Source: Phycisphaerales bacterium (GTDB taxonomy: Bacteria; Planctomycetota; Phycisphaerae; Phycisphaerales; SM1A02). From it: a DNA stretch of 53,001 nt. Positions 1,938 to 27,422 of this stretch are shown here, in pieces. Numbering within the stretch: position 1 is the stretch's first letter; the number at the start of each line of letters is the position of its first letter. The stretch is taken from contig JAKVBQ010000023.1 in NCBI GenBank assembly GCA_022447205.1, positions 1 through 53,001 on the forward strand, in the 5' to 3' direction. Position numbers and translations under genes: made by a program. Under the pieces are notes generated by a model that saw only the letters and a program-made list of their open reading frames with translations, was not told the DNA's origin and did not search any database.

Positions 1938-2264
1938 ATGAGCAGTGGCTTCGACCAGCGCGAAGAGGGCTTCGAGACTCAGTTCAAGCTTGAACAGGAA
2001 CAGAAGTTCCGCGCCACTGCCCGCAGGAACAAGATGCTCGGTCGCTGGGCTGCTGAACGCATGAGTCTTCCGGCCGAAGAGGTCGATGCGTACGTCATGG
2101 ACGTCGTGAAGTCCGATTTCGAGGAGGCTGGCGACGAGGATGTTCTTCGCAAGGTCATGTCCGACCTTGAGGCCAAGGGCGTTCCCGTCTCTGCAGAAGA
2201 ACTCCGCAAGGTGATGGACGACTTCTACTTGGAGGCATGCAAGGAAGTCAGCCAGGAAGGGTGA
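1938..2264 (+). CDS. DUF1476 / F1-ATPase inhibitor zeta-subunit-like protein
   Basis: 108-residue, highly charged, all-helical protein that matches the DUF1476 family from start to end. The N-terminal SGFDQREEGFETQFKLEQE segment corresponds to the inhibitory region. It is followed by ATARRNKMLGRWAAE, then a four-helix-bundle core with DFEEAGDEDVLRKV and PVSAEELRKVMDDF. In Paracoccus and other alphaproteobacteria this family is the zeta subunit, which binds F1 and blocks ATP hydrolysis. I chose ATG 1938 because it matches the family N-terminus; the upstream in-frame extension runs through the tRNA. The stop is 9 bp before the GTG of the halogenase-like gene, so the two are probably co-translated. 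The role as an ATPase inhibitor here is inferred from the family. Confidence 0.85.
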   Translation: MSSGFDQREEGFETQFKLEQEQKFRATARRNKMLGRWAAERMSLPAEEVDAYVMDVVKSDFEEAGDEDVLRKVMSDLEAKGVPVSAEELRKVMDDFYLEACKEVSQEG

Positions 2265-2273
2265 GGCTTCGAA

Positions 2274-3992
2274 GTGCCTGAGAACATCGTTGAGACTGAT
2301 GTCGCGATCATTGGTGGAGGGCCCTCCGGTTCCACCTGCGCATCCCTCGTCCTGAAGTACGCGCCTGACATGAAGGTGATGGTTCTCGAGAAGGAGAAGT
2401 TCCCTCGGGATCATGTCGGCGAGAGCCAGCTTCCCGTCGTCGGTGCGGTGCTCGACGAGATGGGTGTCTGGGACAAGGTCGAAGCCGCCAATTTTCCTCT
2501 GAAGATCGGTGTCACCCTTCGCTGGGGCAAGGAGTCCAAGCTCTGGGACTTCGACTTCGCCGGTCACGAGGAGACCAAGGACCTGCCCCGTCCCGGCAAG
2601 TACGAGGGCGTTCGAAAGCAGATCGCCTTCCAGGTCGACCGGGCCGTCTACGACAAGATCCTGCTTGACCATGCCGGTGAACTCGGCGCCGACGTGAACG
2701 AGGAGTGCCAGGTCGCCGAGGTCCTGCGAGACGGTGACCGCATCGAAGGCCTTCGTCTCCGTGACGGGCGGATCGTCAAGGCTCGCTGGTATGTCGATGC
2801 ATCAGGTCACGTCGGTGTCCTGAGACGAGCGATGGGTGTCGAGGCGGATCCGATCACCACGCTCCAGAACATCGCGATCTGGGACTACTGGGAGAACACC
2901 AAGTGGGCCGTCAAGATCGGTGTCGGGGGCACTCGAGTCCAGGTCCTGAGCCAGCCATCGGGTTGGATCTGGTTCATTCCCCTCGGTCCGACCAGGACCT
3001 CGATCGGATTCATCTGCCACTCGGAACACTACAAGAAGCAGACCAAGACGCCTGAGGAGCTCTACCTCGAGGCACTGGATCGCGACGATCGTGTCAAGAG
3101 CCTCTGTGAAGGCGCCACTCGTCGAGGCATGGTCGAAACGACCAAGGACTGGTCGTTCATGGCTGAACGGACCACCGGCGAGAACTGGTTCCTGGTCGGG
3201 GAGAGCGCAGGGTTCGCCGATCCCGTGCTGGCTGCGGGCATGATGCTCGCGCATGTCGCGGCACGCGAGCTCGCCTACACCCTCGTCGAACTCAACTCCG
3301 ATGAGTCACGAGCGGATTGGATCAAGGCAGGGTACGACTCGAACCAGCGACGCCGGGTCTCCCAGCACATCCGCTTCGCGGACTTCTGGTATTCCGCGAA
3401 CGGCCAGTTCTCCGATCTCAGGGAGCAGTGTGTCCGGATCGCCAAGGAATCCGGTCTCAAGCTCACCCCCGATGCGGCCTGGAGATGGCTTGCGCAGGGC
3501 GGCTTCGCCAACGACTTCGTCGAGCGTGCGAATTTCGGGACCTTCGATGTCGCATCGATGAAGCATGTCATGGGCTTCGTCCTGGACAAGCAGCTCGACT
3601 GGAAGCTCTCTGATGTGAACGTTCTGACCCTGAACCTGAAGAATGCCGAGAAGCTGGAGATCCCGAAGTTCCACAAGGGACGCATCGAGACGATCGAATG
3701 CTACGAGCGTGCGGGTCGCAGACTCCCCATGACCGGTTTCTACAAGACAGTGGTGGAAATCCTCCAGCAGACCAGCAATGCCGAGGAAGTGATGGGCCTG
3801 CTCAAGAGGCATTACGGGGCTTCGAAGGGGGCCACCTCCGACTTCAACACTGCCGTCCAGACCCTCGAATCGCTTCTTGATGAGCACTGGGTCATGGGCA
3901 AGTTGAACAAGAAGAACAAGCGGATCACCGTTTCGACGGAAGAGGAGACCGATTTTCTCCACTTCAACCGTGACGAGGAACCCGGTTCCTGA
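2274..3992 (+). CDS. Flavin-dependent halogenase-like FAD oxidoreductase
   Basis: 572 residues of the tryptophan-halogenase/FAD-monooxygenase superfamily. The N-terminal FAD site is GGGPSG (14-19). The HVGESQLP segment (47-54) is typical of halogenases. A lysine sits at 77 in FPLKIGVTLRWG, where halogenases carry their catalytic lysine. WIWFIP (231-236) is the WxWxIP motif that distinguishes halogenases from monooxygenases, and GESAGFADPVLAAG is the second FAD-binding motif. Such enzymes need reduced FAD from a partner reductase; none is visible nearby. The start is GTG, 9 bp after the zeta-like gene. The 200-residue C-terminal region (after about residue 370) is not assigned. The substrate is unknown, and a non-halogenating redox role remains possible. 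Confidence 0.82.
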   Translation: MPENIVETDVAIIGGGPSGSTCASLVLKYAPDMKVMVLEKEKFPRDHVGESQLPVVGAVLDEMGVWDKVEAANFPLKIGVTLRWGKESKLWDFDFAGHEETKDLPRPGKYEGVRKQIAFQVDRAVYDKILLDHAGELGADVNEECQVAEVLRDGDRIEGLRLRDGRIVKARWYVDASGHVGVLRRAMGVEADPITTLQNIAIWDYWENTKWAVKIGVGGTRVQVLSQPSGWIWFIPLGPTRTSIGFICHSEHYKKQTKTPEELYLEALDRDDRVKSLCEGATRRGMVETTKDWSFMAERTTGENWFLVGESAGFADPVLAAGMMLAHVAARELAYTLVELNSDESRADWIKAGYDSNQRRRVSQHIRFADFWYSANGQFSDLREQCVRIAKESGLKLTPDAAWRWLAQGGFANDFVERANFGTFDVASMKHVMGFVLDKQLDWKLSDVNVLTLNLKNAEKLEIPKFHKGRIETIECYERAGRRLPMTGFYKTVVEILQQTSNAEEVMGLLKRHYGASKGATSDFNTAVQTLESLLDEHWVMGKLNKKNKRITVSTEEETDFLHFNRDEEPGS

Positions 3993-4022
3993 GCCTTCCG
4001 GCAACGAAACCTTGAATTGACG

Positions 4023-4046
4023 AGAACCCGGCACATGCCGGGTTCT
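4023..4046. terminator. Bidirectional hairpin terminator between halogenase-like gene and AI-2E permease
   Basis: Perfect 10-bp arms AGAACCCGGC and GCCGGGTTCT flank the loop ACAT. It sits 31 bp after the plus-strand halogenase-like gene and 65 bp beyond the stop of the minus-strand permease, so it can serve both convergent units. The plus side continues TGCTGTTCGTTGTCTTT, a loosely T-rich tail. Confidence 0.75.
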
Positions 4047-6699: not shown

Positions 6700-7686
6700 T
6701 CAGAACTCGAGTCCGAAGAAGAGTGCCACGAACGGAGCAGGCTGTGCGTCCTGATCCTCGATCACGATGCCGTCGGCATTCTGCAGTTCAAGGCGTTCCC
6801 CGAAACTGACGCCGCCGAGCAGGTGGAGCCTCGTACCTCGCGTCGGACGCCATTCCAGCCTCAGCCACATGGGGAAACTGCGTTCGGTGCCGACGCCGCC
6901 TCGGATCGCGGCGGGTCCGCTGTCATCGAGCCTGAATCTCCGGTAGACGTACCGGAAACCGATCGAGAAGCTCAGGTCCTTCTCGAAGTTGTAGAGGATC
7001 TCGACTCCGGCACTTGCCGGGTAGGTTGCCGGGCCTCGCACGTTGGTGACGACGAGCTTGTCCGTGATCCTCCAGTCGACGAGCAGGGACGGGATGAAGA
7101 GCACGCTGCCGTCGAGTCTTCCCGAGGCGAGCACGCCGGCTCCCAGTGTCAGGTCCCTGCTGAAGGCATAGGAGCCCGCGATCACGCCACCGGTCGAGAA
7201 GGAGTCCCCCCAGTCGGCATCGGGTTCCCCCGCCCAGCGTGCGGTACCGGAGCCGAACACGCTCCATTCACGGTCGATGTCCCACCTTGCCGAGACCCCG
7301 ATGGACAGTTCCTGCGTCGTGGTCCAGGGCGTTCCGCCGGCAGCGCTTGCGAAACTCCCTTCACCACTGAACCGGTAGCGATCGACCTCGGTCGCGATCT
7401 TGAAGCCCATTGAGAGTGCAGGCGTGAAGCGATAGTCGAGTCCCGCCCCCAGGAAGGTTCGGTTCACCGAGAAGGAACCACCTCCGTCGATCTCGCTCTG
7501 GAACTGGTAGAGATCCCCACCGAAGACCTTCCAGGTCACACCGAGGTCCTGCCCCGGGCGGCCACCTGATTCGGGCGGGGGAGCGGCTGCAGCCTGCCCG
7601 TCAGCCTCGTCCTGCCCGACCACCGGGTCGATGGCGAGCATCATGCATGCACAGGCGCAGAGGCACGCAAGTCGCGTGAAGTTCAT
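6700..7686 (-). CDS. Outer-membrane beta-barrel-like protein, copy 1
   Basis: 328 residues with an N-terminal signal peptide (hydrophobic stretch with LACLCACACMMLAIDPVVG, likely cleaved near VVGQ). Many alternating amphipathic strands follow (for example LSFSIGFRYVYRRFRL and TRLHLLGGVSFGERL), and the protein ends in FFGLEF, a C-terminal aromatic residue typical of the Bam recognition signal. This supports outer-membrane insertion, but the function is unknown. I chose ATG 7686, not the codon five residues upstream, because GAAGGA lies 7 nt before it. It is clearly paralogous to the gene just upstream at 7712-8662: shared GGDxYQFxSEIDGGGSF, RRFRLDxSGP, and LHLLGGVxxGxxLEL. Probably co-transcribed with it. 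Confidence 0.75.
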   Translation of the reverse strand: MNFTRLACLCACACMMLAIDPVVGQDEADGQAAAAPPPESGGRPGQDLGVTWKVFGGDLYQFQSEIDGGGSFSVNRTFLGAGLDYRFTPALSMGFKIATEVDRYRFSGEGSFASAAGGTPWTTTQELSIGVSARWDIDREWSVFGSGTARWAGEPDADWGDSFSTGGVIAGSYAFSRDLTLGAGVLASGRLDGSVLFIPSLLVDWRITDKLVVTNVRGPATYPASAGVEILYNFEKDLSFSIGFRYVYRRFRLDDSGPAAIRGGVGTERSFPMWLRLEWRPTRGTRLHLLGGVSFGERLELQNADGIVIEDQDAQPAPFVALFFGLEF

Positions 7687-7711
7687 GTCGAGATCCTTCA
7701 ACCTGTTCGAG

Positions 7712-8662
7712 TCAGAACTCGAAGCCGAGGAACACGCCGACGAACGGACTCACGTCGACATCGGCCTTCGAGAGCTGGTTGCCGTTGCGGTCATCCAGCT
7801 CGAGCTTCTGTCCCAGGGTCACGCCACCAAGCAGGTGGATGCGGATCTCTGGAATCGGACGCCACTCGTAGCGCAGCCAGACGGGGAAGCCGCTGTTCGT
7901 CCCGACGCCGCTGTGGATGATGTTCGGCCCGCTTTCATCGAGCCTGAACCGTCGATACTCGTATCGGGAGCCGACCGAGACATTCATCTCCTTCGAGAGG
8001 TAGTAGATGAGCTCGACTCCCAGGCTGGCCGGGTAGCCGACCGGCGCACGCACGTTCGAGAGGAAGAGCTGTTCGGTGATCCGCCAGTCGATGATCGGGG
8101 AGGGGATGTACAGCAGGTCATCCTCGATCCGGGTGGAGACCTGCATCCCGAGACCGATCGTGAGGTCCTCGGAGAAGGTGTAGGAGGCCCCGAACAGTCC
8201 GCCGGCGGTGAATGCGTCCGTGAGTTCCGCATCGGTTTCCGCGGCCCAGCTGACGACGCCACCGAGGAAGACCCGCCACGTGTCGTCGATCTTCCATCGA
8301 CCGAGGCCTCGCATGGTGATGTCCATGGTCGTGTCCCAGGGATCTCCGGCGGCAGGTGCCGCGAATGCGCCGCCGCCCTTGAAGTCGTACCTGTCGATCT
8401 CACTGGCGATCTTGAAGTCCAGGGAGATTGACGGCGTGAATTCGTAGGTGATCCCTCCCCCGATGAAGAGCCGGTTCTCCGTGAAGCTGCCGCCTCCGTC
8501 GATTTCGGAATCGAACTGGTACACGTCACCGCCTGAGATCGCCCAGGTGGTGGTGTTCTCGTCGGTCTGTTCCTGTGCGTCGTCGGCATGCAGGCTTGCG
8601 ACCCCGACGTGAATGAGCGACAGGGCGAGCGTGGCGGTGGTCTTCTTCTTTGACATCATCAT
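7712..8662 (-). CDS. Outer-membrane beta-barrel-like protein, copy 2
   Basis: 316 residues: basic N-terminus (MSKKK), signal peptide ending near SLHADD, then an extended beta-strand pattern and a C-terminal FLGFEF, again a barrel-type terminal Phe. It aligns along its whole length with the protein at 6700-7686, differing mainly in surface-loop regions, so the pair is a tandem duplication that has diverged. The exact start is uncertain because three ATG codons lie in a row (8662, 8659, 8656). A TATCCT -10-like box lies 64 bp upstream. No enzymatic or channel signature is recognised, so only location and paralogy are supported. Confidence 0.75.
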   Translation of the reverse strand: MMMSKKKTTATLALSLIHVGVASLHADDAQEQTDENTTTWAISGGDVYQFDSEIDGGGSFTENRLFIGGGITYEFTPSISLDFKIASEIDRYDFKGGGAFAAPAAGDPWDTTMDITMRGLGRWKIDDTWRVFLGGVVSWAAETDAELTDAFTAGGLFGASYTFSEDLTIGLGMQVSTRIEDDLLYIPSPIIDWRITEQLFLSNVRAPVGYPASLGVELIYYLSKEMNVSVGSRYEYRRFRLDESGPNIIHSGVGTNSGFPVWLRYEWRPIPEIRIHLLGGVTLGQKLELDDRNGNQLSKADVDVSPFVGVFLGFEF

Positions 8663-16387: not shown

Positions 16388-16519
16388 GTCCGAGAATCCG
16401 GGCTTTCCTCAACGGACAGGCTTCGCTTTGCCGATTCTCAGCACATGGGATCGCCTCTCCTGATGTGGTGAGGCTGTTCCCATGGTTGGCTGGATCGGGG
16501 CCTTTCTGGGAGGCCCATG
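16388..16519 (+). promoter_or_regulatory. Structured leader region before the polysaccharide export gene
   Basis: The 207-bp gap 16366-16572 holds no gene. It contains GAGAATC (16392-16398) pairing with GATTCTC (16433-16439), and an overlapping alternative GTCCG (16388-16392) with CGGAC (16413-16417). The two share base 16392, so they compete. Downstream, a GGGCCT/AGGCCC hairpin lies inside flanking CCATGG copies (about 16479-16519). The first element may be the pyrB 3' end; the second lies in the probable leader of the export gene. I match none of this to a known riboswitch. Confidence 0.3.
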
Positions 16520-16572
16520 GAAGTGCCCATACCAACTGCTCCGTGCGGTTGTTACAGAACGAGGAGTCGATC

Positions 16573-18108
16573 GTGATCATTCGGAATCAGCTCACATCCC
16601 TCATGGTGCGTTCGTTGGCACTGTTCGGGATGCTGATGGGCTTCGTCGTGTCCTCCGGCTGTGAGGTCGACAACTACATGGACCCCAGCAAGACGGGCTA
16701 CTTCGAGTTCGCTCCGACCACGATCCCCGTCCTCGATCGTCTCGATGTCGTCGAGGTTGATGAGCTTCCCTTCGGTGAGATCACCGAACCGAATCCCGAG
16801 GATCTCGTCCCCAGCAGTCTCGTGTACCGGCTCGCGCCCGGTGACGTGGTGAAATGTGAGATCTACGAGCTGGTATCTGCCGGTCAGATGGACATTTCGG
16901 TCCGTATCGTCGACCAGGCCGGCCAGATTCGACTGCCGACGCTTGGGGATGTCCCGGCGGCAGGCCTGAGTCTCGAGGAGCTTCAGAAGGAGATCGAGGA
17001 TCGACTTCAAGGGTTGATCAATGATCCTCTGGTCACGGTGGCGATCGAATCCGGTCGCAGTTTCCAGTTCACCATCTACGGGTCGGTCAGCGGGACCGGG
17101 ATGTACTCGCTGGATCGACCGGATTTCCGGGTGATGAACGCACTCGCACTTGCCGGGGGAACGATGTCGACGACCCAGTACGTCTACATCATCAGGGAGC
17201 TTGCACTGAATGAACTGGTCAAGCCCGCCTTCGACCGACGGGAGAAGGATCCCGGGGAAGCCTCCGGCACGGATGCTCCCAAGACCGATGCGGAAATCGA
17301 AGCCCTGATCAACCAGCTCCAGAGTGAAGATGGAGCTGCACCATCACCCGGCATGGTTGCGAGCCAGGACGACCCCCTGGTCGACCTTGATGATGTCGAA
17401 TCAGCCCCGACCCCCGTCGCTGATGGTGGCAGCCAGGCCGCGAAAAAAGCAGATGACAAGCCCGCATCAAGCCCTGCGAGCACCGGTGCGGCTGTTTCCT
17501 CGTCCGGGTACAGGTACGACGAGGAAAAGAGGGCGTGGGTTGCCGTCGACGGTGGTGAGGAAGAGGAGGACGTCCTGCTTCCGATCGCTGGCGAGGAGGA
17601 CACCAGCCCTTCCTATGCGACCCGGATCATCAGGGTCGACTACCAGCGGCTTGCTCGCGGCGACAGCAACCTGAACGTCGTCATCAGGCCTTCCGACCGA
17701 ATCTACGTCGCCCCGCCCCTGACCGGGGTCGTCTACGTTGATGGTGAGATCGCTCGACCTGGGGTCTATGCGCTTCCCACGACTGGTCGCCTGACGCTCA
17801 GCCGGCTTGTTTCGGCTGCTGGCGGGCTCGGTCCGATTGCCATACCAGAGCGTGTGGACATGGTGAGGGTGGTTGCACCTGAACGAGAAGCAGCGGTACG
17901 GGTGAACTTGTCTGCGATCAGAAGTCGTTCAGAGCCAGATATTTACCTTCAGCCGGATGACCACGTGATCATCGGAACCAACTTCTGGGCCCAGCCCCTC
18001 GCGGTCGTTCGAAATGGATTCAGGGCCAGCTATGGCTTTGGCTTCCTGCTTGATCGAAACTTCGGCAACGACGTGTTCGGTGCGCCTCCCGTGAACTTCG
18101 TTCGATGA
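16573..18108 (+). CDS. Wza-like polysaccharide export lipoprotein with SLBB domains
   Basis: 511 residues. Signal peptide with lipobox VSSGC (Cys30), then a poly-export domain (about 72-155; YRLAPGDVVKCEIYELV, GQIRLPTLGDVPAAGLSLEEL). A first SLBB-type domain follows (FTIYGSVSGTGMYSL near 165), then an acidic Ala/Ser/Asp-rich insert of about 110 residues. A second SLBB-type domain (GVVYVDGEIARPGVYALP, RLVSAAGGLG) and a C-terminal tail complete it. Wza-type proteins form the outer-membrane exit channel for capsule or exopolysaccharide. I chose GTG 16573 because GAGGAG lies 7 nt upstream; an earlier in-frame ATG would add 36 residues before the signal peptide. The long insert is unusual for the family. 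First gene of the export/exosortase locus. Confidence 0.85.
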   Translation: MIIRNQLTSLMVRSLALFGMLMGFVVSSGCEVDNYMDPSKTGYFEFAPTTIPVLDRLDVVEVDELPFGEITEPNPEDLVPSSLVYRLAPGDVVKCEIYELVSAGQMDISVRIVDQAGQIRLPTLGDVPAAGLSLEELQKEIEDRLQGLINDPLVTVAIESGRSFQFTIYGSVSGTGMYSLDRPDFRVMNALALAGGTMSTTQYVYIIRELALNELVKPAFDRREKDPGEASGTDAPKTDAEIEALINQLQSEDGAAPSPGMVASQDDPLVDLDDVESAPTPVADGGSQAAKKADDKPASSPASTGAAVSSSGYRYDEEKRAWVAVDGGEEEEDVLLPIAGEEDTSPSYATRIIRVDYQRLARGDSNLNVVIRPSDRIYVAPPLTGVVYVDGEIARPGVYALPTTGRLTLSRLVSAAGGLGPIAIPERVDMVRVVAPEREAAVRVNLSAIRSRSEPDIYLQPDDHVIIGTNFWAQPLAVVRNGFRASYGFGFLLDRNFGNDVFGAPPVNFVR

Positions 18109-18435
18109 AGGGCACCAGGGGGTCAATCGGCATGGGCCGATGCGGCATGCCGCTGTCGCAACGACGACCACGATCCCGAGCATCTATTCCAGCTGACTGC
18201 GGCGGGTGGACCATGGTCCGAAAACTCATCGAGAAAATCGCATTTTCATCGACCCCAAGGGGTTCGGTGGTCGTACACAGGTTCGGTTGGGCGTGGTGAG
18301 CGTCTGACCTGGGCCGGGTCATGAGCCTTGGAGAGCGCTCATGACCGATAACCAACGGGACAGGATGTCCAAATGGCTTTGGGGGAGAGCACTTGTTCAT
18401 TGAATGAGTGTGTTGATTGAGTCGATGAGAAGCGT
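18109..18435. repeat. Non-coding gap with a series of perfect palindromes
   Basis: This 327-bp gap between the export gene and the exosortase has no convincing gene. It contains five perfect inverted repeats: GCGGCATGCCGC (18142-18153), GGACCATGGTCC (18208-18219), GAAAAT-CGC-ATTTTC (18233-18247), ACCCCAAGGGGT (18252-18263), and GGTCATGAGC/GCTCATGACC with a 10-nt loop (18317-18346). None has a T-run directly after it. They could be a terminator, operators, or a processed RNA leader for the exosortase-TPR genes. Confidence 0.5.
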
Positions 18436-20292
18436 ATGACACCCCACTCAGGTCAGAGCGAGGCACCAGCTTTGGAGGAGCGCACCCTTCAAGGTGATCG
18501 CGTGCAGTCCTGGCCACTGATCATCGCACTCGTCTGCATGCTTGGCGGGATCGTCTGGGCCTTCTACGACTTCTTCAGGGTTGAGGCATACATCGCCACG
18601 ACACAGCCGTCGGACTGGGGACACATCTTCGTGATTCCCCTCATCGCGTTCTGGTTCGTCTGGCTGCGCCGTGACGAGCTCCTCGAACGCCCCCTCCAGC
18701 CCAGCTGGTCGGGCATGTGGTTCGTCCTGCTGGGGATCGTCTTCTACATCATCGCCATGATGGGCCCCGGCCAGTTGATTCACCATCTCACCAGGTCCTT
18801 CGGGGTCTTCGTGTCCTGTTTCGGCCTGGTCATCCTGCTGCTCGGGTGGGGGTGCCTCAGGGTGGTGGGGTTCCCGTTTCTCTACCTCTTCGCATTCAGC
18901 GTGGTCATTCCCGATCGGGTCATGACTCCGATCACCTACCAGTTGCAGGATATGTCGGCCAAGGGCGCCTGGCTGGTGCTCACCCTCTTCGGCTTCGATA
19001 CCGATCTTTCCGGCAACACACTGACCCTCTTTGAAAACGGGGTCTCCTATCCGCTCAACGTCGCGGAGGCATGCTCCGGCATGAGAATGCTGGTGGCATT
19101 CCTCGCACTCGGCACGGCGATGGCCTACGTCGGACTCAACCGGACCTGGCAGCGCACCCTACTGATCCTGCTTGGTGTCCCGGTGGCGATCTTCGTCAAC
19201 GTGCTGCGCGTGGTCACGCTTGGACTGCTCTCCAGGTATGACAGCGCGTTCGCTGCGGGTGATTTCCACACGTTCATCGGTCTCGTCTGGCTGTTCCCCG
19301 CGTTCATCGTCTTCATCGGCCTGATGTGGGCGGTTCGGAAGCTCGTGGTCGAGGCGCCTGCCGCGATCCAGCCTGCCAGCCCGACCCCTCCCGCGCTTCG
19401 CTTCAAGGGTGGTTTCTCGGGTTTCCTGACCAAGACCATGACGGTGACCTTCGTGTATGCCGCAAGCGCGGTGCTGATGGCTCTCATGATGTCCGCACTG
19501 AGTGGTTTCCTCGCGAAGAAGCCGGTTCCACTGCGAGCTTCGCTCGACTCGCTCTCCTCGAGCTTCGACGTCTGGCAGCAGGTCGGTGAGGAACGGGAAT
19601 ACGATGCCGCGGTCATCGAGTCTCTCGGCACCTCTCAGTTCATTGATCGGATCTATGCGGTGAACGGACAGCCCGAGAAGGGCTACCTGACGCTGCACAT
19701 CGCCTACTACTCGGGAACGATCGACGATGTCCCGCACATCCCGGAACGATGCTGGGATGCCGCGGGCCTCGACCAGATGGGTGACTCCACGCGTCTTTCG
19801 CTCGCGGTCGACCAGTCCGACTGGGTCAGCACCGACGTCGTGAACGTCGGTTCCGGTCTCTCCTACGATGCGGTGAAGGTGGTCCACCCGGTGACCGGAG
19901 CGGAACAGATGGTCAATCTTCCGGTCGGCGATCTGGAACTCATGACCAGCGTGTTCACCACCACCCAGGACCCGGACATGCGACGGGTCGGGGGGTACTT
20001 CTTCATCGCGAACGGCCGCACCTGCGCAAGTTCGTTCGCAGTCCGAGGCCTTGCCTTCGACTGGACCCAGGAGTACGCGTACTACTGCAAGGTCCAGTTC
20101 TCGGGCGCCTTCAAGGTCTCCGTTCACGGCGACGACTTTCTCGATACATACCAGGGTCAGGTCACGGAGCTTTCCGAACAGCTCCTTCCCGACCTGATGC
20201 GTTGTCTTCCCGATTGGTCCGAAGTTGAAGCGGTGTCCAGTTCCAGTACTGGCTCGGACTCTGAAACCAATTCCCAAACCCAAGCGAGCTAG
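18436..20292 (+). CDS. Exosortase fused to an EpsI-type domain
   Basis: 618 residues. Residues about 27-310 form a multi-pass exosortase with catalytic Cys213 in NVAEACSGMR, Arg258 in FVNVLRVV and His278 in DFHTFIG, the three invariant residues. A further membrane segment (about 335-360) leads to an EpsI/DUF3485-type periplasmic domain (about 365-595) with HIPERCWDAAG near 436. Exosortases cleave C-terminal PEP-CTERM-like signals and transfer the protein to the surface, usually beside polysaccharide genes, as here. No protein in the window carries an obvious sorting signal. The TPR gene starts 3 bp after the stop, so expression is coupled. Start ATG 18436 lacks a clear Shine-Dalgarno sequence. 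Confidence 0.93.
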   Translation: MTPHSGQSEAPALEERTLQGDRVQSWPLIIALVCMLGGIVWAFYDFFRVEAYIATTQPSDWGHIFVIPLIAFWFVWLRRDELLERPLQPSWSGMWFVLLGIVFYIIAMMGPGQLIHHLTRSFGVFVSCFGLVILLLGWGCLRVVGFPFLYLFAFSVVIPDRVMTPITYQLQDMSAKGAWLVLTLFGFDTDLSGNTLTLFENGVSYPLNVAEACSGMRMLVAFLALGTAMAYVGLNRTWQRTLLILLGVPVAIFVNVLRVVTLGLLSRYDSAFAAGDFHTFIGLVWLFPAFIVFIGLMWAVRKLVVEAPAAIQPASPTPPALRFKGGFSGFLTKTMTVTFVYAASAVLMALMMSALSGFLAKKPVPLRASLDSLSSSFDVWQQVGEEREYDAAVIESLGTSQFIDRIYAVNGQPEKGYLTLHIAYYSGTIDDVPHIPERCWDAAGLDQMGDSTRLSLAVDQSDWVSTDVVNVGSGLSYDAVKVVHPVTGAEQMVNLPVGDLELMTSVFTTTQDPDMRRVGGYFFIANGRTCASSFAVRGLAFDWTQEYAYYCKVQFSGAFKVSVHGDDFLDTYQGQVTELSEQLLPDLMRCLPDWSEVEAVSSSSTGSDSETNSQTQAS

Positions 20293-20295
20293 AAG

Positions 20296-23200
20296 ATGGC
20301 TACCCGTCTCAACAAGAAATTCATCCTCATCCTGACTGGTGTGATCATGATTCTCGGCGTCGCCGTCGCCGGGGTTGCGTATGTCGCAATCTCCGGTGAT
20401 GCGGATCGACAGATCCGCATGGGCCAGGAAGCGGAGGCCATTGGTGACATCGAGGAGGCGCTCGACCGTTACGGGCGTGCGATCTCCAAGGATCCGATGA
20501 ACCTGAGCCACTACAACGATTTCGAACGGATGCTCCTCAAGGTCAAGCCTTCCAGCCGCGTCGATGCACGTGAGAAGTACAACCAGTTCCTCGGCATCCT
20601 CATCAAGAGAAAGAACGTCTCGGTCGACAATCCCGCCTCATGGGAGCGCCTCATCAACGAGTTTCGAAGGCGTGCCGTCCTGATGTCCGCGGGTGGAGGA
20701 GACCCATGGATGGACATTCAGGATCAGTCCGAGCGAATGGTCAGTCAGTTCGAGAATCGTTCGGATTCCGAATCGGTCGCGGCCGCGGAAAGAGCCAAGG
20801 GTTACCTGCTGCAGGCGATGTCGAAGAGGATCGACCTCCTCAAGCCCCAGGAACTCATCGAGTACGAGGCGCTCTGCAAGAGCATGACGGATGCAGGGAC
20901 CACCGATCCGCTGGTCTGGGAGGCGGTGCTGGGCCAGAGGATCAGCGAGGCACTTCGTCACCAGGCCAAGGGTGACATCCGATTGCTGAACAGATCGATC
21001 AGCGACGAGGGCGGATTCGATCCGCTTTTCGCAAGGATGACCGAACTCGGAGTGGAGATGACCCCGGAGCTCTACGGCCTGCAGGCCCTTCGGCTTCGCA
21101 TGGGTGGGGAGTTTCAAGGATCCGATGCCGAGTTCCAGGCCATGTATGCACGTTTCAAGGAGGATGTCGATGCACTGATCGATGAGATCCAGTCCTTGGA
21201 CGATTCAGTGAACAACCGTACGCTTCACGACACGCTCAGGAGGGTCATCCTGGCGAACGTCCTGACGGCGGAGGATGCCGTCGAGGCGATCGTCCCCCTT
21301 TCCGACACCGGGGACCTGAAGCTCGACATGGCCATGGTCCTCTTCCAGAACGTTGCTCAGTCATCGCCCGATCAGGCAGAAAGACTTGCACGGTACACCC
21401 TGGCCGCCGAGCCCCTGACCGTGGGCCTCATCGCGATGATTCAGCCGGTCGCACGGCAGCAGGCGGCCATCAGCCTTTTCGATTCGATCTATGCGAAGGT
21501 CGTGGCCGAAACGGAAGGTTTCTCGGTCGTGGATCTGAAGGTCGCTCGTGAAGAGGCTCTCGTCGAGTTCGCCGGTGACCCGTTGCTCGATGAGGTCATG
21601 CGCTACATGGATGGCAGCATCGCCCTGTTCGAGGAGGACTACGTCACTGCACGATCGAAGCTCTCCGAGATAGCGAACGGGAACCTCGTGAGAAGCTCCT
21701 TCATGCAGCGAAGATTCACGCCACGATTCGTGGCGGCTTCACTGATGTCGGGCGAGCGAGGCGTGGCGATCAAGAACCTGCAGGAGTACGTGGAGGACAT
21801 GCCTCCGACCGCAGTCCTGGGGATCAGGAACTCCCTTGCAAGGGAGCTGGCGTCCATCGGCCGACTGGAGGATGCCCGGGCCGAGATCGAGAATGTCCTG
21901 TCCATCGATCCTGAAAACGAGGAGGCCATCGGCATCAAGGCCCTCCTTGATAAGCGGGAAATGGACATGGCCACCAACGCGACCGGTGGCTTTTCCGCGT
22001 CAGCCAGAGCCTATGCGCGTGCATCCGCGGCGATTTCAGAAGGTCGTTTCGACGACGCACGCGTCGTGCTCCGTGATGCAGTGAAGACGTTCGAGGACGA
22101 CATGATGTTCAAGCGGATGCTCATCACCGTCGAGACGCTGTTGGGGAACAACGAGGAGGCAATCAGCTTCGCCCGTACGATCGATGGTTATGAGGATGAC
22201 GAGGTCATCCAGAGGCAGATCGCATACGCCAGCGTGAACGACCCGATCGAGCGGATCAACCAGATCGTGGAAATGAGCGGTGATGACGAGGCTTCAAAGA
22301 ACGCCCTGAAGTACCTCTACACGATGGACATCGTGGCCCAGGGCCAGGAAGGCTCCGATGTCGCCCTCGGACTGCTTCCCGCATTGTTCGAGGAAGCCAT
22401 CTCATCGATGTCGCCCAACAGGTCCCTCCGTCAAAGGGTGCTCTTCGCCACATCCAGGAACACGCAGTATCTGAGTGGGGTCGATTCGCCCGTGGATCGT
22501 GCTTTCGCCGCCCTTCAGGAGGTCGAGCCGGACGAGGCCGTGGCCGTGACCACCAAGGCCCGTCTCAGCACGATGATGGGAAATCACTCTGAAGCACTCG
22601 AGATCCTCATTCCCCTCACGGAACGCGGCCTCGACAATGCCGAGAGCTGGTACACGAGAAGTCTCGCCTACGAGGGGCTCGGCAGGACCCAGGATGCACT
22701 TGAGTCCATGTCCAAGGCCGTCTCTCGCGCCCCGGATCGTGCGGAGTTCGTCGTCGAGTACGCAGCGCTGCTCGAGGCATCCGGCGACCAGGACAAGGCA
22801 CTCGAGTTGCTCAGGTCGGCGAGGCGCTCGGATGCCATGGCCTTGCTCGTGCGTGATCCATGGCTGGTGGCCGAATCCGCGTACGGAGACCAGCGTCAGG
22901 CACTTACCCAGCGCCTGTCCATCTACAACTCCGATATCGAGGAGTCCGCTTCAGGACGTGAGGTCATCAACAACGGAAACGCCCTCGAACTTTCAAGGCT
23001 CCTTCTGGTTGTCCCTGTTGAACGACAGGACATTCGCGTTGACGGCAAGGTCAGGTTCTCACCGGCGGCCTGGTCGGGTCTCAAGAGCCAGGCCCGACGT
23101 GAGTTGATCAGCAGGGAGCGAGCTGCCAGACGGAAGTATGCCTTCGACGTCATCGGCAAGGTCGATGAGCTTGCCGATGAGAAGTCGATTCGTGATTCGC

Positions 23201-25191
23201 TTCGGCTCGTGCGAGCACAGGCACATCTCCTTTCCGACGACAGAATCAGTGCGCTCGCCGAATTGGATGGTCTCATCGAGTGCTGCGATGAAACGCTTGA
23301 GATTGCGCAGCGGTACAGGCTGATCGACATGCTCCAGGAATTCGACAGGGTCGATGATGCAACCAGGCAGTTCGAGCTGATCGCCGAGACCGAGGATCCG
23401 GCGGCCCTGAGGGAGCTGGCGATCGTGGCTGCCCGAAGCGGACGTGCGGAGATCGCGCATGAGGCATGCACACGCCTCTATGCAACTACAGTGAACTCCG
23501 ATGACGCCGTTCTCTACATCCAGTCGCTTCTCAACATGTCCGATCTGGATGAGGCGGAGAAGATCCTCGACGAGCTCATCTCGGGCGAACGTTATGCCAG
23601 CGACAGTGATTTCCAGTACCAGTGCCTTCTCATCGATGGGAATCTCCAGGCACTGAGGGGACGTGCTGCCATCGACGAGGCCATCCAGCTCGAGAAGGAC
23701 GTGGTGGTCCTCGAGGATGCAGGAAAGTCCGACGAGGCCCGGCAGGCCTCAGCGAACATCAGCGCCCTGATCGAGACCACGAAGAATCGCTTCGAGCGCG
23801 GGGTCGCGGCGATCAGGGAGGCGCAGGCTCTCTATCCGGGCCGGTTGCTTCCGTTCATTCGACTGCATGAACTGCTTCGCTCCCGCGTCATCCTGCTGAA
23901 GAATTCCGCCGTGGAGGCCGACCTTCTCGCGAATGGCAGGGCCGCACGCGAGCTTTCGCCTGCGGACTGGCGTGCCGTGAGATGTCTCATGGAGTCCCAC
24001 ATGGTCATGGGCAACCCCCGTGAGGCGATGTCCGTGATCGACCAGTACTTCCGGAACGGCGGCATGTCCGAATCCGCCAGGGATTCCCTCATGAGCATCG
24101 CGCGCATCGAGGGCAAGACCGGCCTCGCCATTCCGCCCTTCGAACGAGCGATGGATCGGGATCCGGCCAACCCCGAATGGCCCAGGGCGATTGCCAAGAT
24201 GCTGGTGGAGAGTGGAAACAAGGAAGGTGCCTCTGACATGTGGTGGAAGGTGATCGAACTCGATTCCTCCACTGCTGCAGTCACCGAGTTCATCGAACTC
24301 GAGTTCGAGACCGATGACTTCAACATCGCTCGTGTCACCGAAGCGTTCTCCCTGCAGCCGTCCATGGTCGAGGAGTTTCCGAGACTGAAGGCCGCATATG
24401 CCGCTGTCCTGTACAAGCAGGGCGAGATCCGGCGAGCCGAGCGCATGTTCGATGAGGCCTACAAGAACGCTCGTGATGCGAAGACGTCCGGAAGGGACAT
24501 GCTCTCGGTCGACAAGACGCTCGTCTACTTCAAGCATGTCTACCCCAATGACACCCTCCAGCAGGCGGAGGCTCGACTTGTCGCGATGTCGGGGAACGAC
24601 ATGTGGGCGAACGACTACAACGCGCTCTCGTCTCTCGCCGACGGAGAAGATTTCGAGGATATGAATCTTCCCGAAGCCATCAGGTACCTGACGCTCGCGA
24701 AGGAGAAGTCCGAATCCGACCCGATCTATCGTCGGGCGATCCTGGATCGACTCTCTCGTCACTACTATCTCGATGGCAACTGCGAAGGTGCTGTCGATGC
24801 CCTCCAGGAGATCGTGGACATGGGTGGTGCCGCACCCCCGACACTCAACAACCTCGCGTACATGATGTATGACTGCAAGGGGGATGCGGCTGGTGCGGTC
24901 TACTACTCGACGCAAGCACTTCAGGCATCCCCTGCCTCGCCGATCTACCTGGACACCCATGGGGTGATCCTCATGGCGATGGGGCAGCTCGAGGATGCAG
25001 AACGCTATCTCTCGCGTGCGGTGTCGATCAAGGCATCCCCTGCGAATCTTCTTCACTATGCACAACTCATGCACGAGACCGACCGTGACGACGAGGCCGG
25101 GATCCTGCTCGAGAAGATCGGCAAGGACTTCCCCGTTCTCCCTCCTGACGTACAGGGCAAGGTGAACGCGCTGATCGCCGAGATCGACTGA
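20296..25191 (+). CDS. Giant membrane-anchored TPR protein
   Basis: 1631 residues: a short basic N-terminus (MATRLNKK), one membrane segment (about 9-33), then an almost continuous alpha-helical array with TPR-like units, for example QAEAIGDIEEALDRYGRAI-type near 45-65, LASIGRLEDARAEIENVLSID near 520, AESWYTRSLAYEGLGRTQDALE near 780-800, and a final cluster near 1500-1600. TPR arrays act as protein-binding scaffolds; long ones next to exosortases resemble PrsT-type proteins of PEP-CTERM systems, which is the likeliest relation but not proven. Periplasmic orientation is inferred. Lies 3 bp after the exosortase and 47 bp before the Wzz-like gene. No enzymatic motif is seen. Confidence 0.85.
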   Translation: MATRLNKKFILILTGVIMILGVAVAGVAYVAISGDADRQIRMGQEAEAIGDIEEALDRYGRAISKDPMNLSHYNDFERMLLKVKPSSRVDAREKYNQFLGILIKRKNVSVDNPASWERLINEFRRRAVLMSAGGGDPWMDIQDQSERMVSQFENRSDSESVAAAERAKGYLLQAMSKRIDLLKPQELIEYEALCKSMTDAGTTDPLVWEAVLGQRISEALRHQAKGDIRLLNRSISDEGGFDPLFARMTELGVEMTPELYGLQALRLRMGGEFQGSDAEFQAMYARFKEDVDALIDEIQSLDDSVNNRTLHDTLRRVILANVLTAEDAVEAIVPLSDTGDLKLDMAMVLFQNVAQSSPDQAERLARYTLAAEPLTVGLIAMIQPVARQQAAISLFDSIYAKVVAETEGFSVVDLKVAREEALVEFAGDPLLDEVMRYMDGSIALFEEDYVTARSKLSEIANGNLVRSSFMQRRFTPRFVAASLMSGERGVAIKNLQEYVEDMPPTAVLGIRNSLARELASIGRLEDARAEIENVLSIDPENEEAIGIKALLDKREMDMATNATGGFSASARAYARASAAISEGRFDDARVVLRDAVKTFEDDMMFKRMLITVETLLGNNEEAISFARTIDGYEDDEVIQRQIAYASVNDPIERINQIVEMSGDDEASKNALKYLYTMDIVAQGQEGSDVALGLLPALFEEAISSMSPNRSLRQRVLFATSRNTQYLSGVDSPVDRAFAALQEVEPDEAVAVTTKARLSTMMGNHSEALEILIPLTERGLDNAESWYTRSLAYEGLGRTQDALESMSKAVSRAPDRAEFVVEYAALLEASGDQDKALELLRSARRSDAMALLVRDPWLVAESAYGDQRQALTQRLSIYNSDIEESASGREVINNGNALELSRLLLVVPVERQDIRVDGKVRFSPAAWSGLKSQARRELISRERAARRKYAFDVIGKVDELADEKSIRDSLRLVRAQAHLLSDDRISALAELDGLIECCDETLEIAQRYRLIDMLQEFDRVDDATRQFELIAETEDPAALRELAIVAARSGRAEIAHEACTRLYATTVNSDDAVLYIQSLLNMSDLDEAEKILDELISGERYASDSDFQYQCLLIDGNLQALRGRAAIDEAIQLEKDVVVLEDAGKSDEARQASANISALIETTKNRFERGVAAIREAQALYPGRLLPFIRLHELLRSRVILLKNSAVEADLLANGRAARELSPADWRAVRCLMESHMVMGNPREAMSVIDQYFRNGGMSESARDSLMSIARIEGKTGLAIPPFERAMDRDPANPEWPRAIAKMLVESGNKEGASDMWWKVIELDSSTAAVTEFIELEFETDDFNIARVTEAFSLQPSMVEEFPRLKAAYAAVLYKQGEIRRAERMFDEAYKNARDAKTSGRDMLSVDKTLVYFKHVYPNDTLQQAEARLVAMSGNDMWANDYNALSSLADGEDFEDMNLPEAIRYLTLAKEKSESDPIYRRAILDRLSRHYYLDGNCEGAVDALQEIVDMGGAAPPTLNNLAYMMYDCKGDAAGAVYYSTQALQASPASPIYLDTHGVILMAMGQLEDAERYLSRAVSIKASPANLLHYAQLMHETDRDDEAGILLEKIGKDFPVLPPDVQGKVNALIAEID

Positions 25192-25238
25192 CTGACTTTC
25201 CGGGCACAGGTCGCTTTTTCACACATCTGGACCATTCC

Positions 25239-27422
25239 ATGGCAACGACGACGAAACGAACATCCTCGACCCCACAGCGGCAGCAAGGTGCTGCCCGTGC
25301 AAGCACGGGGACCAGGGTGATTGATCCCATCCGAATCCTGAGACAGCACGTCTGGCTGCTCATGGGTGCTGGCGTCGCGGGCGCCTTCGTGGGTCTCGGA
25401 GCATTCGTCGTCTGCCTGCTGTTCTTCCCGAGATACAACGGATCCGTCGTCTTCGAACTGAGTCCGGATCTCCAGACCGCGGATGCCGTGGTCAGCACCG
25501 ACCGTCGAACCGCAGACACCGTCACTCGTCTTGCTCGAACGGAGACCGGTCGAGTCATGACCCAGAAGGTGCTGACCGCCGCCCTCGAGGATCGTGATGT
25601 CAGGAGAACGGTGTGGGCCGATCAGTTCAAGGTCGACGGGACCAACTTCGACCTGAACGAGGCGCTCGTCGAGCTCGAGGACGAGTTGAGCGCCTATCAC
25701 GTTCGGGACACGAACACCTTCGTGATCTCCTGGAGCGGTTCCTCCGCATCCGACATCCCCGTCATTCTCGGTGCGGTCCAGGCCTCCTACATGTCGTCGC
25801 TGACCGACATCACCGATGCTCGGTACAACAGCAATCTCAAGACGTTCACGGACCAGAAGGACGACCTTGACAGCCTGATCACGTTCCTCGAGACCGAAAA
25901 GCAGAACTTCGTTCGTGAGAACAACATCACGTCCCTGAACGAGGCGGTCAACGAGAGGCGTGAGCGGATCGCGGAGTTGGTCCGTCAGATCTCCGAGGCG
26001 AGTTCGAACGTCGAGATGCTCGCATCGAGAATGGAGCAGCTCCAGGCGAAGATCACCGGTCGCATGGACCCATCCAACGACGACATTCGAACCGCGGAAC
26101 AGGACCCGATCGTGATGAACATCCTCGGGCGCATCCGCAGCCTCAGGATCGAACTCAACACCGCCCGAAATCGCTTCCATCCCGGGCATCTTGCCGTCAA
26201 GCAGGTCGAGAGGATCCTGAAGGCATCCGAGGATGAGAAGGAGTCCGCGGTTCAGGAGATCGTCCACCGGGATCTCAATGCCAAGTTCAAGGAGACGAGC
26301 GAGAGCCGCGAAAGCTATGACCGTCTGTTGCAGACGCTCGAATCCGACTACACCGAGGCCCAGACGAGTCTTCGTGAGTACTCCTCGGCACTCGGTGAGC
26401 TCCAGTCGATCGACCGTCGCCTCGAAGCCGCGAATGCGGATCGCGACGACATCAACCGGACGATCGCCGACATCAACAAGGTTCGAGTCCGCTCCGATGC
26501 CTCCAAGGTGGTGGTCTTCCAGGAGGCGACCCTGCCGAAGGAGCTGGCATTCCCCAAGATCAAGCTGATGATCCCCGCCGGCTTCGCGCTGTTCCTCGCA
26601 CTCGCACTCGGCATCGTGTTCCTGCGCGAGCTCCTCGACAATCGGGTCAAGTACCCGAGTGACATCAACTCGATCGCTGGTGCAAGGCTCCTCGGCGTCA
26701 TCCCCGATTCCGATGATGATCCCACCGGGGTGGAGTCGGTGGAGCTGGTGGTCCGGAACGAGCCGGATTCGGTCATGGCGGAGTCGTTCAGGCAGACGGC
26801 GGCACATGTCTACAAGGAGATGCATGCCAGCGACCACCAGTCCCTGCTCCTGATCAGCGGCATGCCCGACGCGGGCACCACCACGATCTCGAACAATCTT
26901 GCTGGAAGTCTCGCGGCGACCGGCAGGAAGGTCGTGGTCGTTGACGCGAACTTCAGACGGCCCCGACTCGAGGAGGCCTTTGGAATGGAGCAGGCAGCCA
27001 GAGGTCTGGGCGACGCCCTTGCCGGGGAGGCACCGGTCGACAGCGTCGTGGTCACGACAGGCGATTCCGTCGACATCATCGGCGCGGGCAGCGAGATCAA
27101 CCGTGTCTTCGAGCGATTGAACACGAGCGCCATGGACGACATCCTTGCGACGCTCCGACGTCGATACGACATCGTCCTCATCGACGGGCCTCCGGGAGTC
27201 GTTTCCGGTGATGCACTCGTCCTGGCCTCCAAGTGTGATGCCACTGCACTCATCGTGCGTGCCGGAAGCGAGGAGCGCGGCTTGATCGGAAGACTCATCG
27301 GTCAGCTGAAGCAGATGGAGGCATCCTTCATCGGCGTCATCTTCAACCGTCCGAGGCACACCGCCGGCGGCTACTTCAAGAAGAACTTCCAGACCATGGC
27401 CAGCTACTCACCCAAGGCCTGA
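25239..27422 (+). CDS. Wzz chain-length determinant fused to a BY-kinase-like domain, Walker A altered
   Basis: 727 residues. N-terminal membrane segment (about 40-63), a Wzz/GNVR-type periplasmic region with long coiled coil (about 200-420), a second membrane segment (about 441-463), then a cytosolic BY-kinase/ParA-like domain (about 510-715). Walker A' VVVVDANFRRPRL (565-577) and Walker B DIVLIDGPP (644-652) are intact. The P-loop, however, reads SGMPDAGTTT (540-549): the position of the invariant lysine is Thr547. The C-terminus has only two tyrosines (Tyr712, Tyr723) instead of a tyrosine cluster. It may therefore control polymer length without tyrosine-kinase activity (inference). Sits in the locus between the TPR gene and the epimerase gene. 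Confidence 0.87.
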   Translation: MATTTKRTSSTPQRQQGAARASTGTRVIDPIRILRQHVWLLMGAGVAGAFVGLGAFVVCLLFFPRYNGSVVFELSPDLQTADAVVSTDRRTADTVTRLARTETGRVMTQKVLTAALEDRDVRRTVWADQFKVDGTNFDLNEALVELEDELSAYHVRDTNTFVISWSGSSASDIPVILGAVQASYMSSLTDITDARYNSNLKTFTDQKDDLDSLITFLETEKQNFVRENNITSLNEAVNERRERIAELVRQISEASSNVEMLASRMEQLQAKITGRMDPSNDDIRTAEQDPIVMNILGRIRSLRIELNTARNRFHPGHLAVKQVERILKASEDEKESAVQEIVHRDLNAKFKETSESRESYDRLLQTLESDYTEAQTSLREYSSALGELQSIDRRLEAANADRDDINRTIADINKVRVRSDASKVVVFQEATLPKELAFPKIKLMIPAGFALFLALALGIVFLRELLDNRVKYPSDINSIAGARLLGVIPDSDDDPTGVESVELVVRNEPDSVMAESFRQTAAHVYKEMHASDHQSLLLISGMPDAGTTTISNNLAGSLAATGRKVVVVDANFRRPRLEEAFGMEQAARGLGDALAGEAPVDSVVVTTGDSVDIIGAGSEINRVFERLNTSAMDDILATLRRRYDIVLIDGPPGVVSGDALVLASKCDATALIVRAGSEERGLIGRLIGQLKQMEASFIGVIFNRPRHTAGGYFKKNFQTMASYSPKA

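Follow-up and report, generated by a model that had tools for sequence, protein, structure and literature searches.

The gene at positions 1938-2264 of contig JAKVBQ010000023.1 (53,001 nucleotides, the whole of which is referred to here as the window) is, by family and fold, a genuine and intact gene for the zeta subunit of F1-ATPase, resident in a bacterial order of planctomycete type. It is followed after 9 bp by the gene of a predicted flavin-dependent enzyme resembling CmlS (hereafter, the flavoenzyme), which lies between zeta and a hairpin whose counterpart follows zeta in a relative and is probably co-transcribed with zeta, although nothing points to a conserved partnership of the two genes. 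The probability that this joint reading is correct is estimated at roughly 0.78. In the published account, zeta is described as essentially exclusive to alphaproteobacteria, matches outside them being truncated pseudogenes (PMC9317440).

Identity of the zeta subunit

The 108-residue product matches the Pfam family PF07345 (ATPaseInh_sub_z, DUF1476) with an E-value of 1.2e-35 and 122.4 bits (cut-off 25), the match covering positions 3-101 of the 102 in the profile. Among the sequences of the Protein Data Bank (PDB), the only matches at E ≤ 1 are 7vkv and 2ll0/5dn6, which are named zeta, and the unnamed 2kzc. The AlphaFold2 (AF2) model, for which 30 aligned zetas served as input, has a predicted local distance difference test (pLDDT) score of 90.2 and comprises helices at residues 3-41, 46-59, 67-79, and 86-107; a Foldseek search with this model places 7vkv, 2kzc, and 2ll0 at ranks 1-3 with a probability of 1.00, the other rows shown reaching at most 0.33. 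Six columns are invariant among the 30 aligned zetas (F24, W37, D60, G65, D68, and V69), and at the N-terminus R8 and E13 are found in at least 90% of these proteins as well as in the window zeta. The protein is thus like the alphaproteobacterial zetas of Paracoccus denitrificans (2LL0/5DN6) and Sinorhizobium meliloti (7VKV) and the unnamed 2KZC in whole-length Pfam family, fold, the six invariant columns, and most of the N-terminal segment, and differs from them in its identity of 38-44% to the solved proteins (Foldseek alignments) and in its host.

The N-terminal segment is conserved and, as the continuous helix 3-41 of the model suggests, able to form an extended helix. An extended N-terminal helix has been tied to the inhibitory state, whereas Sinorhizobium zeta is compact and five-helical by nuclear magnetic resonance spectroscopy (PMC10469736). 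Because AF2 models of such zetas are at their least certain in the N-terminus (PMC10469736), the helix is regarded as suggestive evidence.

Occurrence and selection in the planctomycete-type order

The window corresponds to the entire contig 16 of a genome (G000) of 3.25 Mb, 86 contigs, and 95% completeness, in which zeta is the single PF07345 match. The host order is called planctomycete-type because TIGR04138 (Plancto_Ver_chp), a family that we take to be confined to Planctomycetes and Verrucomicrobia, is present in all six genomes tested, G000 included; it is present in none of 14 control genomes. An earlier note on this DNA, made from the sequence, had described the setting as planctomycete-like, and this description holds.

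PF07345 was found in 10 of 61 relatives, in 58 of the 181 genomes of the family (13 of 45 genera), and in 64 of 400 genomes of the order, in families f1, f5, and f6; in all, 66 distinct carriers were found in the order. A sample of 294 genomes from the phylum contained two carriers, both belonging to this order. One match is present in 57 of the 58 family carriers, G424 having a second, partial match, and a zeta is also carried by G505, whose 4.6 Mb form one contig. The listed matches contain no internal stops, and nearly all span almost the full profile, the exceptions being G442, in which the gene is cut by the contig end, and the diverged genomes of genus g22 (G022, G465, and G466). The zeta of g22 is strongly diverged (L019:9200-9540 in G022; E about 1e-8 to 1e-9) and may be a paralogue or a copy in decay. 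Judged from codon sequences, zeta is under purifying selection, the median dN/dS of within-genus pairs being 0.122 (range 0.013-0.456; 42 pairs with usable dS, of 126).

Zeta is not restricted to alphaproteobacteria, and the published claim of such a restriction, which concerns a taxonomic and not a mechanistic feature, does not hold in these genomes. No report of a planctomycete zeta was found in the open-access PubMed Central (PMC) literature, a scope beyond which lie most subscription journals and all preprints; within it, zeta papers using the term DUF1476 do not mention "planctomycet" in their main text, and no co-mention of "ATPase inhibitor subunit zeta" with "Planctomycet" was found. 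Public databases may already list planctomycete zeta proteins under the Pfam family.

Gene arrangement and transcription unit

The genes and elements surrounding zeta, all on the forward (+) strand, are as follows.

348-1259, + strand: folP (dihydropteroate synthase), a conserved upstream anchor gene (PF00809, E 5e-73), which adjoins trx also in G001, G033, and the zeta-less genomes of genus g13
1343-1675, + strand: trx (thioredoxin), a conserved upstream anchor gene (PF00085, E 3e-31), which adjoins folP in G001, G033, and g13
1806-1879, + strand: tRNA-Ala (GGC), 58 bp 5′ of zeta (ARAGORN)
1938-2264, + strand: zeta-type F1-ATPase inhibitor (PF07345, DUF1476), 108 amino acids (aa), ATG at 1938, stop ending at 2264 (Pfam, PDB sequence matches, AF2 model, Foldseek)
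2274-3992, + strand: predicted CmlS-like flavin-dependent halogenase or monooxygenase, 572 aa, GTG at 2274, stop ending at 3992 (Pfam, PDB sequence matches, AF2 model)
4022-4046, + strand: terminator-like hairpin 3′ of the flavoenzyme, counterpart of the hairpin directly after zeta in G001 (pattern search, folding z-score)

The earlier note had read a full-length DUF1476 protein 9 bp before a GTG-started halogenase-like gene, and both genes (the second matching Trp_halogenase at E 8.6e-38) and the gap (2265-2273) are as it described; both genes are on the same strand. The tRNA-Ala gene and the hairpin did not figure in that note. Downstream of the flavoenzyme, the Pfam scan identifies a transporter of the AI-2E family on the opposite strand, followed by pqiA and a gene for an MlaD protein. 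The same-genus genome G001 keeps both the folP-trx-tRNA-Ala-zeta and the AI-2E-pqiA-MlaD arrangements, the space from zeta to the transporter being occupied by a gene whose product is PDZ-like and rich in Ser and Asp; no flavoenzyme orthologue was found in it, either beside zeta or in a genome search at E ≤ 1e-100, the threshold applied to flavoenzyme orthologues throughout.

The hairpin, with the pattern GAGAACCC..GGGTTCT, lies 3′ of zeta in G001 and 3′ of the flavoenzyme in the window; G000 contains the pattern twice and G001 once, and reversed-pattern controls gave no match. Compared with each other, the window and G001 copies show a different loop and one matched substitution of a stem pair (G-C to A-U); folding is strong for both (z -4.6 and -5.9; the window copy at -23 kcal/mol, z -5.9). 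The T-run behind the stem is clean in G001 and poor in the window, which makes termination less certain in the window. Because the flavoenzyme gene is flanked by zeta on one side and, on the other, by the counterpart of the hairpin found after zeta in G001, it is probably within the transcription unit of zeta and co-transcribed with it, having apparently been inserted into that unit in this lineage or lost from it in G001.

Zeta and the flavoenzyme as neighbours

The earlier note had proposed a new pairing of zeta with the flavoenzyme, in which the flavoenzyme would be regulated by F1 or the energy state or would work with zeta; we now consider such a functional pair very improbable. The 9-bp spacing on one strand and the position of both genes before one hairpin, which makes a single transcript likely, speak for it. 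By contrast, in the gene-order survey of zeta carriers (49 neighbourhoods clustered and 17 further carriers checked by tblastn, 66 in total), the flavoenzyme adjoins zeta in one carrier, that of the window. A flavoenzyme orthologue is present in 18 of the 181 family genomes, and both genes occur in seven (G000, G033, G375, G376, G438, G440, and G443) compared with 5.8 expected (Fisher p 0.34; p 0.36 among the 61 relatives); the two are adjacent in one of these seven and on different contigs in the other six. Furthermore, the same-genus G001 is without a flavoenzyme beside zeta, and elsewhere the orthologue is accompanied by different genes, the six neighbours scanned comprising three TauE-like transporters, PEPCK, a MauE-type protein, and a further halogenase. 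The pairing is therefore rejected on the gene-order survey and the lack of co-occurrence, and the flavoenzyme is probably a lineage-specific neighbour of zeta, a coincidence of one species.

The survey, which the earlier note had suggested, indicates that zeta has the same neighbours across a genus but, for the most part, other neighbours in other genera, some being common to g5 and g7 and others to g1, g33, and g254. A further candidate partner of zeta, "cluster 0" (23 members in six genera), was judged to represent loose linkage: of four members scanned, three contain repeats or domains of secreted proteins (FG-GAP, dockerin, and P-domain) and one is matchless. In genus g35 (L013:8406-11093 in G035; L081:39-2316 in G457), a double GNAT acetyltransferase gene is followed by zeta, which overlaps an HD-domain gene by 4 bp, and this gene in turn overlaps a third by 4 bp, all on one strand. 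In six genomes of genus g259, the upstream same-strand neighbour of zeta is a gene for polyphosphate kinase 2, another nucleotide-energy enzyme (L101:8251-9192; Pfam on one member).

Nature of the flavoenzyme

From its sequence and model, the flavoenzyme is predicted to be a flavin halogenase or monooxygenase resembling CmlS. The nearest solved chains by PDB sequence are 8zop, PltA, CndH, and CmlS. Its FAD motif (GxGxxG) reads IIGGGPSGST, in which G14, G15, G16, P17, and G19 are invariant in 10 of 10 aligned sequences. The WxWxIP motif and the active-site lysine reported in the earlier note are both present: WIWFIP occupies residues 231-236, the motif being found in nine of the 10 sequences (WTWNIR in L031), and Lys77 is invariant in all 10 and aligns with a lysine of CndH that is presumably the catalytic one. 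The FAD motif, WIWFIP, and Lys77 are features in common with the variant B flavin-dependent halogenases (CmlS 3I3L, CndH 3E1T, PltA 5DBJ, and FasV 8ZOP). The AF2 model has a mean pLDDT of 73, with values below 50 at residues 76-117, 212-221, and some shorter stretches, and its best Foldseek match is CmlS (3i3l) over 580 columns. The protein is nevertheless not a CmlS orthologue because its score of 174 bits is far below the CmlS equivalog cut-off of 900. Matches to flavoprotein maturases extend over the flavin domain and are weaker (QhpG 5.9e-31, LodB 2.1e-24, and GoxB 3e-11), below the equivalog cut-offs of these families, and no quinoprotein gene was found among the scanned window neighbours, to which this search was confined. 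The C-terminal domain has no significant match in profile searches of PDB and Pfam; the idea that it binds peptides was dropped, as these searches were empty and Foldseek aligns the protein with CmlS over its 580 columns.

Several observations concern the orthologues in other genomes. A TauE/SafE-type transporter gene lies beside the flavoenzyme orthologue in three genomes (L021:3265-4368, L024:3258-4352, and L031:1907-3055; 41-50% mutual identity). In G057, the orthologue adjoins a second gene of halogenase type (L029:1438-4692; Trp_halogenase, E 4e-99), and in G050 a tandem paralogue stands beside it (C19:103686-107102). Two orthologues contain one in-frame TAG (G009:C1:2139091-2140794 and G377:C528:4740-6431). 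Elsewhere in the window, positions 6700-8662 encode two tandem, similar-looking proteins that appear outer-membrane-like by eye and have no NCBIfam match at E ≤ 0.001, and positions 16465-27422 hold a gene cluster for polysaccharide export and exosortase (Poly_export, EpsH, a large TPR protein, and an AAA ATPase).

The host F1 and the putative role of zeta

Zeta would most likely act as a unidirectional brake of F1 in this planctomycete-type order. Such a role is consistent with its fold, its N-terminal conservation, and the selection acting on it; from these we infer that it binds the host F1 and inhibits ATP hydrolysis. The zeta gene is on contig C16 and the beta gene on C2 in G000, and the two are on different contigs in all 10 carriers among the 61 relatives, a comparison made with the beta gene only; in this separation the gene resembles that of alphaproteobacteria, which sits outside the atp operons (PMC9317440). 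The genes for F1 beta and epsilon are themselves unlinked in G009, where they lie about 2 Mb apart on the single contig C1 (1569032-1570450 and 3535162-3535533, respectively). In G000, beta is on C2 and epsilon on C12, the latter (L261:5700-6128) between scpB and a gene of DNA polymerase III delta′ type, and in this epsilon Pfam at E ≤ 1e-5 recognises the N-terminal beta-sandwich domain only. The possibility that zeta was gained together with an alphaproteobacterial F1 was also considered and is unsupported: the closest PDB match of G000 beta is 2qe7 (665 bits) compared with 623 bits for 5dn6/5cdf, in what is a similarity ranking and not a tree.

Alternative explanations

Several points of function and of ancestry weigh against the joint reading. 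Inhibitory strength differs among zetas, and that of Sinorhizobium does not inhibit its own enzyme (PMC10469736). Since deletion of zeta in Paracoccus is reported not to suffice for activating ATP hydrolysis, the weight of zeta in unidirectionality is disputed (PMC5795051). Epsilon proteins were compared for 49 cases (30 best-scoring and 19 chosen) from the 167 family genomes with epsilon, their starts being set by alignment to G000 epsilon, and the 25 from zeta-positive genomes measure 130-145 aa, the 22 from zeta-negative genomes 130-142 aa, and the two from genomes with a divergent zeta 130 aa; because these lengths are similar with or without zeta, no compensatory need for zeta is visible, and the suggestion that zeta replaces a shortened epsilon is unsupported. 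Zeta is patchy, 123 of the 181 family genomes being without a match, and residue 15 of the window zeta is Gln where at least 90% of the 30 aligned zetas have Lys. The patchiness, Gln15, the variable inhibitory strength, and the moonlighting role proposed for Zymomonas zeta (PMC9317440) could all be accommodated by a protein that keeps the zeta fold but no longer inhibits F1 and serves another purpose, as reported for some zetas of Rhizobiales and suggested for that of Zymomonas. The retention of R8 and E13 in the window zeta and in at least 90% of the 30 zetas argues against such a loss, as does the AF2 single helix 3-41, which corresponds to the extended form, unlike the compact form of Sinorhizobium, and we regard the loss as unlikely.

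As regards ancestry, one other genome of the genus (G001) was available for comparison, and the trees are weak and unrooted, resting on an alignment of 107 columns, so that no direction can be read from them. The larger tree has 129 rows, those from alphaproteobacteria being a biased sample, namely, the 80 closest to the query of at least 572; the smaller, used for the approximately unbiased (AU) test, has 57 rows thinned by identity (32 of 54 planctomycete and 25 of the 80 alphaproteobacterial zetas). The following results count against a single resident zeta lineage: planctomycete zetas form one group in 0% of 200 bootstrap trees in both analyses, the free trees need two and three label changes, and the zetas of the window and G001 adjoin one alphaproteobacterial row with support of 80/80 in the 129-row tree. 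The best identity of the window zeta is, furthermore, 55% among the 80 alphaproteobacterial zetas and 52% among planctomycete zetas outside its genus. These results, together with the zeta-less genus g13, in which folP-trx-tRNA-Ala is followed by MlaD within about 200 bp (L303, L304, and L306; the sequence could be read to this distance in three of the four genomes), would fit a separate acquisition, in which the zeta of this genus came from an alphaproteobacterium independently of those of the other planctomycetes and was placed behind the tRNA-Ala gene. In g13, either the zeta/AI-2E/pqiA segment is missing or it was elsewhere inserted behind the tRNA-Ala gene. Yet constraining the 32 planctomycete zetas together gives a log-likelihood 3.95 above that of the free search (AU p 0.566), so that a single clade is not rejected, even though no bootstrap tree contains it; the grouping with the alphaproteobacterial row involves a long stem and weak support and is favoured by the choice of rows by similarity to the query. 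Moreover, the tRNA-Ala gene upstream of zeta recurs in G001, G033, G440, G375, G376, and G442 (genera g1, g33, and g254), the order in G033 being folP-trx-S9 peptidase-tRNA-Ala-zeta. A separate acquisition is accordingly judged to be a minority possibility, and zeta may have been transferred once or more than once. The earlier note had asked for this phylogeny, and nesting of the planctomycete zetas within alphaproteobacteria is not shown by it; of the note's horizontally acquired regulator, what stands is a bioenergetic regulator outside alphaproteobacteria, recurrent and selected, and what falls is a stray acquisition. Contamination, or a mis-binned alphaproteobacterial contig, can virtually be dismissed: many genomes of the set are fragmented, that of the window into 86 contigs, but zeta occurs in 58 family genomes and in the single-contig G505, and the window contig has folP-trx-tRNA-Ala and MlaD in common with zeta-less family members. 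A further, quite improbable reading takes zeta to be an ancient and functional brake of the planctomycete lineage that works alongside epsilon on an F1 with unlinked beta and epsilon genes; alphaproteobacteria would have obtained it from there, or both groups from an older common source.

Perspective

Zeta as an alphaproteobacterial protein has been used in arguments on the origin of mitochondria and on the loss of the inhibitory epsilon (PMC9317440). The zeta gene described here soundly extends the range of a known regulator, apparently into a phylum new to it, and should be mildly surprising to specialists in bioenergetics. A full-length, selected, and recurrent zeta in an apparently different phylum changes the premise that zeta is alphaproteobacterial only, and if zeta were indeed older than, or donated to, alphaproteobacteria, the idea that alphaproteobacteria invented zeta would be overturned. 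The planctomycete-type order additionally provides an independent F1 on which to test how epsilon and zeta divide their labour, a matter disputed even in Paracoccus.

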